The notes beneath the pieces are model-generated. The model saw only the letters and a list, made by a program, of their open reading frames with translations. It did no database searches and had not been told where the DNA came from. From Actinomycetota bacterium (lineage in GTDB: Bacteria; Actinomycetota; Thermoleophilia; Gaiellales; Gaiellaceae), in contig JACCXC010000111.1 of NCBI GenBank assembly GCA_013697275.1, positions 1 to 38,526 on the forward strand: 38,526 nucleotides of DNA. The letters are read 5' to 3'. The translations under genes were made by a program, and so were the position numbers. The stretch's first letter is position 1. Each line of letters opens with the position of its first letter. Shown here piece after piece: positions 3-30,786 of this stretch.

Positions 3-959
3 GCCGGGCCGCTCGGCCCCGGCACCACCCTCCGGATCTCGACAGGCGGCGCCGTGCCAGCCGGGGCGGATGCCGTCGTCCCGCTCGAACTCGTCGAGGA
101 GCAGGATGGCGCGGTCGTCTTTCCGGATGCAGTCGCGTCCGGCACCCACGTGCGCGAGCGAGGCGGAGACATCCGTGCGGGCGCGCTGGTCCTGAAGCCC
201 GGGGTCTTGCTCGGCCCCGCCCAGGTCGCGGCGCTCGCGGCGGCGGGCGTCGCAGAGGTGCACTGCGCGAAGCGTCCTCGCGTCGCAATCCTCGTCACGG
301 GCTCGGAGCTTCGGCCGCCCGGCGAGCCGCTCGGGCCGGGCGAGATCTACGAGTCGAACGCGCTTCTTCTTGCCGCGGCCCTGCAAGGCGGCGGGGCGGT
401 GCCCGCCCAGCTCGGCGTCGTTGCCGACGACCTCGCGGAGCACGTGCGCGCGCTCGAGCGGGCCCTTCTCGCCTTCGACGTCGTCGTCACCTCCGGCGGC
501 GCGTCGGTCGGGCCGCACGACCTCGTGCGCGAAGCGCAGCGGAAGCTCGGCGTCGAAGAGCTCTTCTGGGGTGTCTCCGTCAAGCCCGGGAAGCCGGTCG
601 CTTTCGGCGTCCGGCGAAACCACCTGGTCTTCAACCTCCCAGGGAACCCGGTCTCCGTCCTGGTCACGTTCGAGCTCTTCGTCCGTCCCGCCCTTGCCGC
701 GCTGCAGGGGGCTTCCGACTCTCTCCCCGCCTTTGGTCGCGGGCGGCTCACCGCACCGATCAGGCCGAACGCGCGCCGGCACGAGTTCGTGCGCGCGCGG
801 GCCTTCGCAGAGAGCGGTGAGCTTCGCCTCGAGCCGCTCGACGGCCAGGAGTCGCACATGATCGTGCGGGCCGCGCAGGCAAACGCGCTGGTCTCGGTTC
901 CGGCGGGCGAGGAGGAGCTCTCGGCCGGCTCCGAGGCGCGGTTCCTTCCCCTTCGCTAG
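3..959 (+). CDS. moeA: Molybdopterin molybdenumtransferase MoeA (5' truncated by window edge)
   Basis: Frame stays open upstream of the called ATG (…LRISTGGAVPAGADAVVPLE…); MoeA motifs TGSEL, TSGGASVGPHD, PGKPVAFG, NLPGNPVS. Confidence 0.93.
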   Translation, partial: AGPLGPGTTLRISTGGAVPAGADAVVPLELVEEQDGAVVFPDAVASGTHVRERGGDIRAGALVLKPGVLLGPAQVAALAAAGVAEVHCAKRPRVAILVTGSELRPPGEPLGPGEIYESNALLLAAALQGGGAVPAQLGVVADDLAEHVRALERALLAFDVVVTSGGASVGPHDLVREAQRKLGVEELFWGVSVKPGKPVAFGVRRNHLVFNLPGNPVSVLVTFELFVRPALAALQGASDSLPAFGRGRLTAPIRPNARRHEFVRARAFAESGELRLEPLDGQESHMIVRAAQANALVSVPAGEEELSAGSEARFLPLR

Positions 960-28197: not shown

Positions 28198-29142
28198 GTG
28201 GCGCTCCAGGTCGGCATTGTCGGGCTCTCGAACGCGGGGAAGACCACGCTCTTCAACGCGCTCACGAACGCGGGCGCGGAGATCACGGCATACGCGACCG
28301 TCTCCGAGAAGGCGAACGTCGGCATGGCCCCGATCGCCGACGAGCGGCTTCCGAAGCTGGCGGAGCTCGTCAGCGCCCGGAAGGTGACGCCCGCGGCGGT
28401 TCGCGTCGTCGACGTTCCCGGCTCCGGACGGCAGCTCCTCGGGGGCTTGCGCGAGGTGGACGCGCTGCTCGCCGTGCTCAACGGCTGGGCCGCCGATGCG
28501 GATCCCGCCCGGGATCTGGAGACGCTCGAGCTCGAGCTCCTCGTCGCCGACCGCGACCATGTAGAGCGGCGACTCGAGCGGGTGGAGAAGCAGGCGAAGT
28601 CGGGCGAGGCCGCGCTTCGCCAAGAGGTGGAGGACCTTCGCGCTTTGCTCGAGCACCTCGACGAGGGTCGGACCCTGAGGGACTACCCGCGGGAGCTCCC
28701 CTCCGCGCTCGAGCCCCTGACCACCAAGCCGATCGTCGCGGTCGAGAACGGCCCGGTCGGGGTCGACCTGAAGCTCGAGGCCGAGCTTGCCGAGCTTCCG
28801 GAAGACGAGGCGGAGGCGTTCCGCGAAGGCCCCTCGGCGCTCGGGACGATCGCCGGCCGGCTCTTCGAGACGCTCGACCTCCTGAGCTTCTTCACCGTCG
28901 GTGACAAGGAGACGCGGGCCTGGACGCTTCGCCGTGGGCGGACGGCGCTCGACGCCGCGGCGGAGATCCACACCGACATCGCGCACGGCTTCATCCGGGC
29001 GGAGGTGATTCGCTGGGATGCACTCGTTGAGTGCGGGTCTCACGCCGAGGCGGCGCGGCGAGGCCTGATGCGGCTCGAAGGGAAGGCTTACGAGGTAGAG
29101 GACGGCGACGTCCTGAACGTCCGCTTCAGCCCGCCGCGTTAG
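28198..29142 (+). CDS. Divergent YchF/OLA1-like GTPase
   Basis: P-loop GLSNAGKTTLFNALT; TGS-like C-terminus FFTVGDKETRAWTLRRG…IHTDIAHGFIRAEVI…LRLEGKAYEVEDGDVLNVRF-type; GTG 28198 with TAGCCT 7 nt upstream. Confidence 0.85.
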   Translation: MALQVGIVGLSNAGKTTLFNALTNAGAEITAYATVSEKANVGMAPIADERLPKLAELVSARKVTPAAVRVVDVPGSGRQLLGGLREVDALLAVLNGWAADADPARDLETLELELLVADRDHVERRLERVEKQAKSGEAALRQEVEDLRALLEHLDEGRTLRDYPRELPSALEPLTTKPIVAVENGPVGVDLKLEAELAELPEDEAEAFREGPSALGTIAGRLFETLDLLSFFTVGDKETRAWTLRRGRTALDAAAEIHTDIAHGFIRAEVIRWDALVECGSHAEAARRGLMRLEGKAYEVEDGDVLNVRFSPPR

Positions 29143-30353
29143 GCATCGAGCTGCCAGACGTCTCCGCGCAGGAGCGGGACGGCGTCTCCCTCCGCGGTCA
29201 CTCCGTCCACCTCGATCTCCGGCCCGCCCACCATGAAGTCGGTGTGGATCGAGGACTGCGAGACCCCGCGCGCCGCCTGCTCCTCGCGGGAGAGCTCGCT
29301 CGCGTCCACGACACTCGCCAAGCCCTGGCCATAGGCGATGTGCGAGGTCGCGTTCTCGTCGAAGAGCGTGTCGTAGAAGGTGATCCCGGTCTGGCCGACG
29401 CGCGACGAGCCGTCGACGAGCGCGATCTCCCCGAGCGTGCGCGAGCCCTCGTCCGTCGCAACCTGTGCGCGCACGACTTCCTCACCCGTTCGCGCGCTCA
29501 CCTCCTCGATCCGTCCCCCGGCGAAGCGCACGACGAGGCCTTCGACGATCGTGCCCCGGGTGAAGAGGGGCCGTGTGGAGCGGACGACCCCTTCGGCGCG
29601 GCGCGCGTCCGGGGTGGTGAAGACTTCTTCGGTGGGCAGGTTGGGGATGAAGGATCGACCCCACACGGTGTCTTTTCGCGCGCTCGACCAGATCGAGCCC
29701 GCGTGGAGGCCGACGGTCAGGTCTGTGCTCGGGCCGCGATACCGGATCGCATCGAAACGACGTTCGTTCAGCGCAGCCGCTCGCCGCTCGAGGCGCTCGA
29801 CGTGCTTCTGCCAGGCGGCGACCGGGTCGGGCTCGTCCAAACGGACGACTCGGCGAATCGCCGCCCAGAGGCGGCTGAGATCGGTCTCGCCGAAGATCGT
29901 TCGCGACCAGCCCTCCGTCGGGCAGCCGACGATGCACCAGTTGACCAGGCGCTCGGTCACCTGGCGGAGCCAGACGTCGTCCTCCTCCCGACGCCGCGAG
30001 CGGCCGAGGCGGTCGTTGTCCACGTCGTCGAAGAGGTGCGGGTCAGGCGAGCCGCGCACCGTGAGGAAGGCGCCCCGGTCGGCGAAGGCCCTGCGCCGCT
30101 CGAGCATCCAGGGTGGCGTCGACCCGAGCAGCTCGTCCGGCACGGACTCGACTAGGGACTTCCGCACGTCCTCGTCCGAGTAGAGGACGTCGACATAGCG
30201 TGCGCCCGCTGCGTATGCCGCGCGCGTGACCGCCCGGACGAACGGCGCGTGCTCGACGTAGGCGTTCACGCCGAGCATCTGCCCCGGCTCGAGGTTGACG
30301 CCGACCCGGACGACGAGCCGGGCGTAGGCGTCGAGCTCGTCACGCGCGATCAC
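29139..30353 (-). CDS. M29-family aminopeptidase (AmpS/AmpT-like)
   Basis: LVVRVGVNLEPGQMLGVNAYVEHAPFVRAVTRAAYAAGARYVDVLY; FIPNLPTEEVFTTPD; SSIHTDFMVGGPEIEVDG. Confidence 0.92.
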   Translation of the reverse strand: MIARDELDAYARLVVRVGVNLEPGQMLGVNAYVEHAPFVRAVTRAAYAAGARYVDVLYSDEDVRKSLVESVPDELLGSTPPWMLERRRAFADRGAFLTVRGSPDPHLFDDVDNDRLGRSRRREEDDVWLRQVTERLVNWCIVGCPTEGWSRTIFGETDLSRLWAAIRRVVRLDEPDPVAAWQKHVERLERRAAALNERRFDAIRYRGPSTDLTVGLHAGSIWSSARKDTVWGRSFIPNLPTEEVFTTPDARRAEGVVRSTRPLFTRGTIVEGLVVRFAGGRIEEVSARTGEEVVRAQVATDEGSRTLGEIALVDGSSRVGQTGITFYDTLFDENATSHIAYGQGLASVVDASELSREEQAARGVSQSSIHTDFMVGGPEIEVDGVTAEGDAVPLLRGDVWQLDA

Positions 30354-30375: not shown

Positions 30376-30426
30376 TCAGCAGCAGCCGCAGCCGCATCCC
30401 TCGCAATCGCAACACGCTTTCCGCAT
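30376..30426 (-). CDS. Cys-rich micropeptide, 16 aa: MRKACCDCEGCGCGCC
   Basis: Not in ORF track (too short). Reverse strand …GGAGGAGGTGACCG-ATG CGG AAA GCG TGT TGC GAT TGC GAG GGA TGC GGC TGC GGC TGC TGC TGA; AGGAGGTGA Shine-Dalgarno; 7 Cys in 16 residues; divergent from arsR. Confidence 0.65.
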   Translation of the reverse strand: MRKACCDCEGCGCGCC

Positions 30427-30448
30427 CGGTCACCTCCTCCGGTAGCCT

Positions 30449-30466
30449 TATATCGAAGAGTATCGA
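30449..30466. promoter_or_regulatory. Candidate ArsR operator/promoter
   Basis: Direct repeat TATCGA-AGAG-TATCGA (30451-30466) in the 39-bp divergent region between micropeptide and arsR; AT-rich TTATAT/TATAAG cores. Confidence 0.45.
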
Positions 30467-30786
30467 TGAAGGAGCTCGCTGTCATCCAACCGTGTTGCGC
30501 GCCAGGTGCGCCGCGGCTCTCGGTTGCCGAGCGCGAGGCGCTTGCCAGGCGCTTCAAGGCGCTCGCCGATCCCGCGCGCGTAGCCATCGTGAACCGGCTC
30601 GCGGGTGCGGGTGAGGTATGCGTGTGCGCCTTCGTTGGCGAGCTCGGCCTTTCGCAGCCGACGGTCTCCCACCACCTGCGTGTTCTGCGCGAGGCGGGCC
30701 TCGTCGAGGCAGAGCGGCGCGGAACCTGGGCGTACTACCGCGTCGTCCCCGAGACGGTCGAGGCCCTCGCCGCGACTCTCGTCTAG
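30466..30786 (+). CDS. arsR: ArsR-family metal(loid)-responsive repressor
   Basis: Winged helix ALADPARVAIVNRLAGAGEVCVCAFVGELGLSQPTVSHHLRVLREAGLVEAERRGTWAYYRV; CVC motif as in As(III)-type sensors; N-terminal PCC. Confidence 0.92.
   Translation: MKELAVIQPCCAPGAPRLSVAEREALARRFKALADPARVAIVNRLAGAGEVCVCAFVGELGLSQPTVSHHLRVLREAGLVEAERRGTWAYYRVVPETVEALAATLV

Follow-up and report, generated by a model that had tools for sequence, protein, structure and literature searches.

A cysteine-rich micropeptide gene divergent from arsR

The window (the whole 38,526-nucleotide stretch of DNA analyzed) contains a short open reading frame on the minus strand at 30376 to 30426, stop included, which runs from an ATG at 30426 to 30424 to a TGA at 30378 to 30376 and encodes the 16-residue, 7-cysteine peptide MRKACCDCEGCGCGCC. 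A Shine-Dalgarno sequence, AGGAGGTGA, lies upstream on the same strand (30430 to 30438), with a spacing of 6 nt between its AGGAGG and the ATG. The micropeptide gene is divergent from arsR (30466 to 30786, plus strand), whose ATG is at 30466, across a gap of 39 bp (30427 to 30465). The reading frame, its ribosome site, and its divergence from arsR are exactly as the first-pass annotation of this DNA had described them. The precise cysteine spacing of the peptide occurs a single time in the entire genome to which the window belongs (pattern search), and a Pfam search with the peptide queried as a tandem doublet gave no match at E values of up to 1.

The arsR gene encodes a 106-aa repressor of the ArsR/SmtB family (PF01022, E = 4e-16) that scores 103 bits against the metalloregulator model NF033788 (cut-off of 55) and whose nearest solved structure is 6j0e, an arsenic-responsive ArsR. 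As(III) is coordinated by Cys15, Cys16, and Cys55 in CgArsR and by Cys32, Cys34, and Cys37 in R773 ArsR (PMC11868830). The window ArsR carries both an N-terminal Cys-Cys pair and a Cys-Val-Cys motif and so appears to combine features of the two. The pair and the nearest structure liken it to the CgArsR-type (type 3) actinobacterial As(III) repressors, from which it differs in its additional CVC motif, as in R773 ArsR, and in the position of the third ligand, its third cysteine being offset from CgArsR Cys55 in the 6j0e alignment. Among the ArsR proteins linked to a peptide (see below), the N-terminal CC is present in 36 of 37, with the remaining row incomplete, and CxC is present in all 37.

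Recurrence of the micropeptide within one family

We gathered ArsR relatives from 129 genomes of the order, 399 genomes of the class, and named contigs, on which the nearest relatives belonged to soil MAGs labelled Actinobacteria or Thermoleophilia, and read their gene neighborhoods. In 36 further genomes, from 11 genera of a single family, the same slot divergent from an orthologous arsR holds an ORF of 13 to 24 aa with 5 to 9 cysteines, preceded in every case by a strong Shine-Dalgarno sequence (examples are MSCCDCDCDCCSGCC, MPGCCDCPDCCGDDCC, MSCCDCGCDCDCCR, MACCDCDCGGGCC, and MAECDCPPDCCPAGCC). The first-pass annotation had looked to relatives for conservation of both the ribosome site and the cysteine spacing; the Shine-Dalgarno sequence and the richness in cysteine are kept, and the exact spacing is not.

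No such peptide was found at ArsR loci of other families and orders, including the ArsR clade of other orders, and at the loci compared none is divergent from the ArsM-associated ArsR paralogues. Loci L127 to L148, from other orders of the class, share a conserved ArsR (KxKRPAGEPCCEPV...) but lack the peptide, and at some of them (e.g., L127 and L138) an ArsC-like gene is divergent from arsR. On the ArsR tree, which is based on a short alignment and has many unresolved forks, the peptide label changes 6 times, versus ~29 times when shuffled.

The extreme shortness of the ORF is what would favor a chance frame without a product. A background scan of both strands of ~797 kb of fetched loci, for ORFs of 10 to 30 aa with at least 4 cysteines, at least 25% cysteine, and a Shine-Dalgarno sequence, placed all qualifying ORFs in the arsR-adjacent slot except one, which comes last in an arsR-arsM operon. 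A blind search of 399 genomes, run with a control and using a pattern of operator and ribosome site alone (ATYGA-N6-TCGATGRARGGAG), gave 26 matches, all within the peptide-bearing family, and 0 in the control; 24 of the 26 run into a Cys peptide, 1 into ArsM, and 1 into an unrelated protein. Among them was a 37th, previously unexamined peptide genome (G116, MPSCCDEGCGCGCDCC), so that at least 37 related genomes have a version of the peptide (36 by slot and 1 by blind search). A phylum-wide search of 397 genomes for a single spelling of the motif preceded by a ribosome site returned, beyond the window's own genome, only background-like matches, comparable to those of a reversed-pattern control. 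Recurrence in 37 genomes, a Shine-Dalgarno sequence and composition that survive divergence, the near-empty background, and a blind prediction that came true lead us to reject the chance ORF, the least probable of the readings considered. The micropeptide ORF is almost certainly a real gene that is too short for annotation, and it illustrates that comparison can establish a gene of 16 codons, far under the limits of annotation.

Putative operator and promoter elements

The first-pass annotation had described a direct repeat, TATCGA-AGAG-TATCGA, between the divergent genes, a site that is better taken as the inverted repeat ATCGA-AGAGTA-TCGAT (30452 to 30467), which overlaps the arsR start codon. 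The exact ATCGA-N6-TCGAT pattern occurs at only one site in the 2,185,331-base genome. A relaxed form of the repeat (ATYGA-N5/6-TCRAT) is present in 35 of the 36 peptide-arsR gaps, against a background of 0.04 per kb, and 24 gaps have two copies, one overlapping the arsR start and the second abutting the peptide ribosome site. Only the arsR-side copy is left in the window. Unique in its genome and recurrent among relatives, the repeat is a probable ArsR operator through which ArsR may repress the peptide gene.

A putative arsR -10 element, TATATC, is located at 30449 to 30454 (plus strand), and relatives have TATATT or TACATT in the equivalent position. Since this -10-like element lies ~12 nt before the arsR ATG in relatives, the arsR transcript may be leaderless or nearly so. 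On the peptide side, loci L024, L025, and L026 have TTGACT-N17-TATATA.

Peptide composition

Pooled, the 36 peptides consist of 41% Cys, 17% Gly, 16% Asp, 6% Ser, 4% Glu, and 4% Pro; Phe, Leu, Val, Trp, Tyr, and any Met beyond the start are absent from all of them. The C-terminal residues are Cys-Cys in 32 of the 36, and net charges are mostly -1 to -5. The high cysteine content, the CC and CxC motifs, and the complete lack of aromatic residues are functional hallmarks of metallothioneins. Because the peptides vary by indels and substitutions even between loci whose ArsR proteins are >90% identical, selection appears to act on their composition, as would be expected for a metal-thiolate peptide. 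In aligned peptides, Cys columns are kept at ~70% and other columns at ~45%, values drawn from nonindependent pairs with frequent indels; as indels blur the conservation of Cys codons, we relied on recurrence and composition as evidence for selection.

The same design could serve a different soft metal (Cu(I), Cd(II), Zn(II), or Hg(II)), or else a redox or sulfur signal, with ArsR as the sensor and the peptide as the buffer. Such thiol peptides are good ligands for Cu(I), Zn(II), and Cd(II), the displaced third cysteine of the ArsR site would fit a ligand other than arsenic, and small seven-Cys fungal metallothioneins take about six Cu(I) (PMC13107397). The fungal proteins (~25 aa, from Neurospora crassa and Agaricus bisporus) resemble the micropeptides in being very small, rich in Gly and Ser, and free of aromatics, but they are copper related (PMC13107397) and differently regulated, and they are longer and less acidic than the bacterial peptides, whose Cys spacing varies.

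Gene neighborhood and replacements of the peptide

The usual gene order is ECF sigma factor, YchF-like, peptide (reverse), arsR, arsC-like, EamA (reverse), and HD/OB (reverse). The peptide and YchF-like genes converge in 21 relatives, where no gene follows the peptide gene on its strand. The window encodes the YchF-like GTPase (314 aa) at 28198 to 29142; it scores 221 bits on the YchF equivalog model (cut-off of 279), and its gene is conserved beside the ECF sigma factor gene throughout the family. An EamA/DMT-type transporter gene recurs by the module, convergent with arsC (e.g., at L012, ~+686 to +1516 relative to the start of arsR), and there is none near arsR in the window.

In the window, an M29 aminopeptidase gene (29139 to 30353, minus strand; PF02073, E = 4e-124) begins 22 nt past the peptide stop. 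The peptide could be a leader or attenuator that regulates the M29 gene through the response of its Cys codons to charged tRNA-Cys, much as mycobacterial operons are attenuated by poly-Cys short ORFs (Canestrari 2020, as cited in PMC13236596). Those are likewise very short, Cys-rich actinobacterial ORFs, but they are leaderless and stand before the genes they control, whereas the micropeptide genes have a strong Shine-Dalgarno sequence and usually no gene downstream. The absence of any same-strand downstream gene at 21 loci rules out a leader peptide as a general role, and, of the loci compared, only the window has the M29 gene. Furthermore, neither an Rfam match nor a terminator-like hairpin was found, and the non-Cys residues of the peptides are restricted as well. 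We reject a leader function on the gene order of relatives and the absence of RNA elements, and consider it very improbable. The M29 gene is probably a bystander peculiar to the window's genome, which leaves the link to the peptidase suggested by the first-pass annotation unsupported.

An arsC-like gene lies directly after arsR at 17 peptide loci and is absent from the window; its product is above the cut-off of PF01451 but under those of the ArsC equivalogs. Two relatives have a different gene in the peptide's place behind an operator of this kind, encoding ArsM in one (L027; 299 bits, cut-off of 263) and ArsI/CadI in the other (L023; 167 bits, cut-off of 116), and the position beside arsR therefore looks like an arsenic-defense slot. 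Both slot proteins contain Cys-rich stretches, CCSGAEAHACC in the tail of the L023 ArsI and GCGCSADDCAENGCCG near the N terminus of the L027 ArsM, which perhaps hint at the origin of the free peptide.

Distribution of arsenic genes

As noted at first pass, the window contains no arsenic efflux or reductase gene, and profile searches of its genome (93.6% complete) detected no ACR3, ArsB, low-molecular-weight (LMW)-type ArsC, or above-cut-off ArsM. Of 103 genomes of the family, 16 have ACR3 and 40 have above-cut-off ArsM. At least one of the two is found in 2 of the 36 peptide genomes versus 43 of the 67 others (Fisher P of ~2e-9, uncorrected for ancestry and incomplete assemblies; G116, whose peptide was found afterwards, is scored as negative in the co-occurrence counts). 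Within the same ArsR clade the figures are 2 of 36 with the peptide and 8 of 11 without it (Fisher P of ~2e-5, likewise uncorrected for ancestry and incomplete assemblies), and the inverse pattern recurs inside genera g3 and g30. ArsB (PF02040) matches were mostly weak and uninformative for co-occurrence.

This distribution, inverse to that of ACR3 and ArsM, together with the arsenic genes found as neighbors and as slot replacements (ArsC-like, ArsM, and ArsI/CadI), argues against a peptide devoted to another soft metal, which we consider unlikely though deserving of weight. Alternatively, the peptide might be an As(III) chaperone instead of a store, handing As(III) to ArsR, ArsC, or a transporter, much as ArsD serves ArsA. 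Its paired cysteines and tiny size would suit such a role, as would the Cys-rich stretches that the slot ArsM and ArsI carry themselves. ArsD is a protein of ~120 aa encoded with ArsA, whereas the micropeptide has 16 aa and inspection of the genes flanking the loci showed no ArsA-like neighbor. The module has no conserved partner pump, ACR3 is missing from most peptide genomes, and the fast sequence change speaks against a specific docking surface; a chaperone thus seems a distinctly poor prospect.

A predicted micro-metallothionein for arsenic

We hypothesize that the micropeptide is a micro-metallothionein under ArsR repression whose role is to sequester As(III) or another soft metal, a reading that we consider likely, with the residual doubt mostly over which metal. 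It draws on the recurrence of the gene, its Shine-Dalgarno sequence, the fixed composition, the shared repeat, the arsenic neighbors, the replacement by ArsM or ArsI, the inverse relationship to ACR3 and ArsM, the lack of anything downstream at 21 loci, and the retention of the N-terminal CC and the CxC in ArsR. In this respect comparison supports the first-pass proposal of a stand-alone module that pairs a metallothionein-like thiol peptide with a divergent arsR of the arsenic type, and adds that the peptide is conserved and the probable operator shared. In the model, the micropeptide ORF would be translated, and ArsR bound to the ATCGA-N6-TCGAT repeat would silence the promoters of both genes. 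Release of ArsR by As(III) or a comparable soft metal would then allow production of an acidic, flexible, thiol-dense peptide, which would chelate the ion within the cytosol. Sequestration of this kind would provide detoxification in genomes most of which have neither efflux by ACR3 nor methylation by ArsM.

Several observations count against this reading: the exact Cys spacing varies among relatives, the module is known from one family only among the genomes compared, the window has one operator copy out of two, a sigma-70-type promoter scan of the window passed no candidate, and neither an LMW ArsC nor an arsenic pump is detectable in the window's genome. The 16-aa micropeptide is also not a member of the bacterial metallothionein sequence family (SmtA/BmtA, Pfam Metallothio_Pro; ~50 to 60 aa), and the suggestion that it works like a metallothionein is one of composition and context.

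The layout is similar to that of smtA-smtB in Synechococcus PCC 7942, where the metallothionein SmtA is divergent from an ArsR/SmtB-family repressor with 100 bp between them (PMC8790569). In both, a Cys-rich product is encoded divergently from such a repressor over a short operator region, an arrangement found here at 36 loci and 1 more, with operator function predicted. SmtA has ~56 aa, versus 13 to 24 aa here, the ArsR is of the arsenic type with arsenic gene neighbors, the operator (ATYGA-N6-TCRAT) differs, and no sequence relationship was detected. The metallothionein-plus-repressor design would thereby reach down to ~16 residues.

Phytochelatins, which chelate As(III) and Cd(II), are likewise short, acidic thiol peptides; the micropeptides differ from them in being gene encoded, whereas phytochelatins are made enzymatically from glutathione. 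Whether the peptides of 13 to 24 aa constitute a previously undescribed phytochelatin-like but gene-encoded family, controlled by ArsR, sequestering arsenic in place of ACR3 efflux and ArsM methylation, selected for composition over sequence, and comprising the smallest known metallothionein-like products is to us an evenly balanced question. A literature search, with most subscription journals outside its reach, found no published description of the peptide family. A 2025 study states that the ars operon is not known to contain specific genes for sequestering arsenic inside the cell (PMC12093948), and the micropeptide is a direct candidate for such a gene at an ars locus.

Further arsenic-related features

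At locus L124 (G081:C30, ~40 to 84, minus strand), a Cys micropeptide with a good Shine-Dalgarno sequence, MTPVSECDCGGACC, sits at the contig edge, co-directional after arsM in an arsR-arsM operon. Many genomes of the family (e.g., at G029:C91, G031:C61, and G057:C10) have ArsM-like methyltransferase genes with one in-frame TGA. These are probably NCBIfam-listed selenoproteins (ArsM_AhpD, ArsM_DUF2284, and UXPK-star), which suggests that selenocysteine is used in the family.
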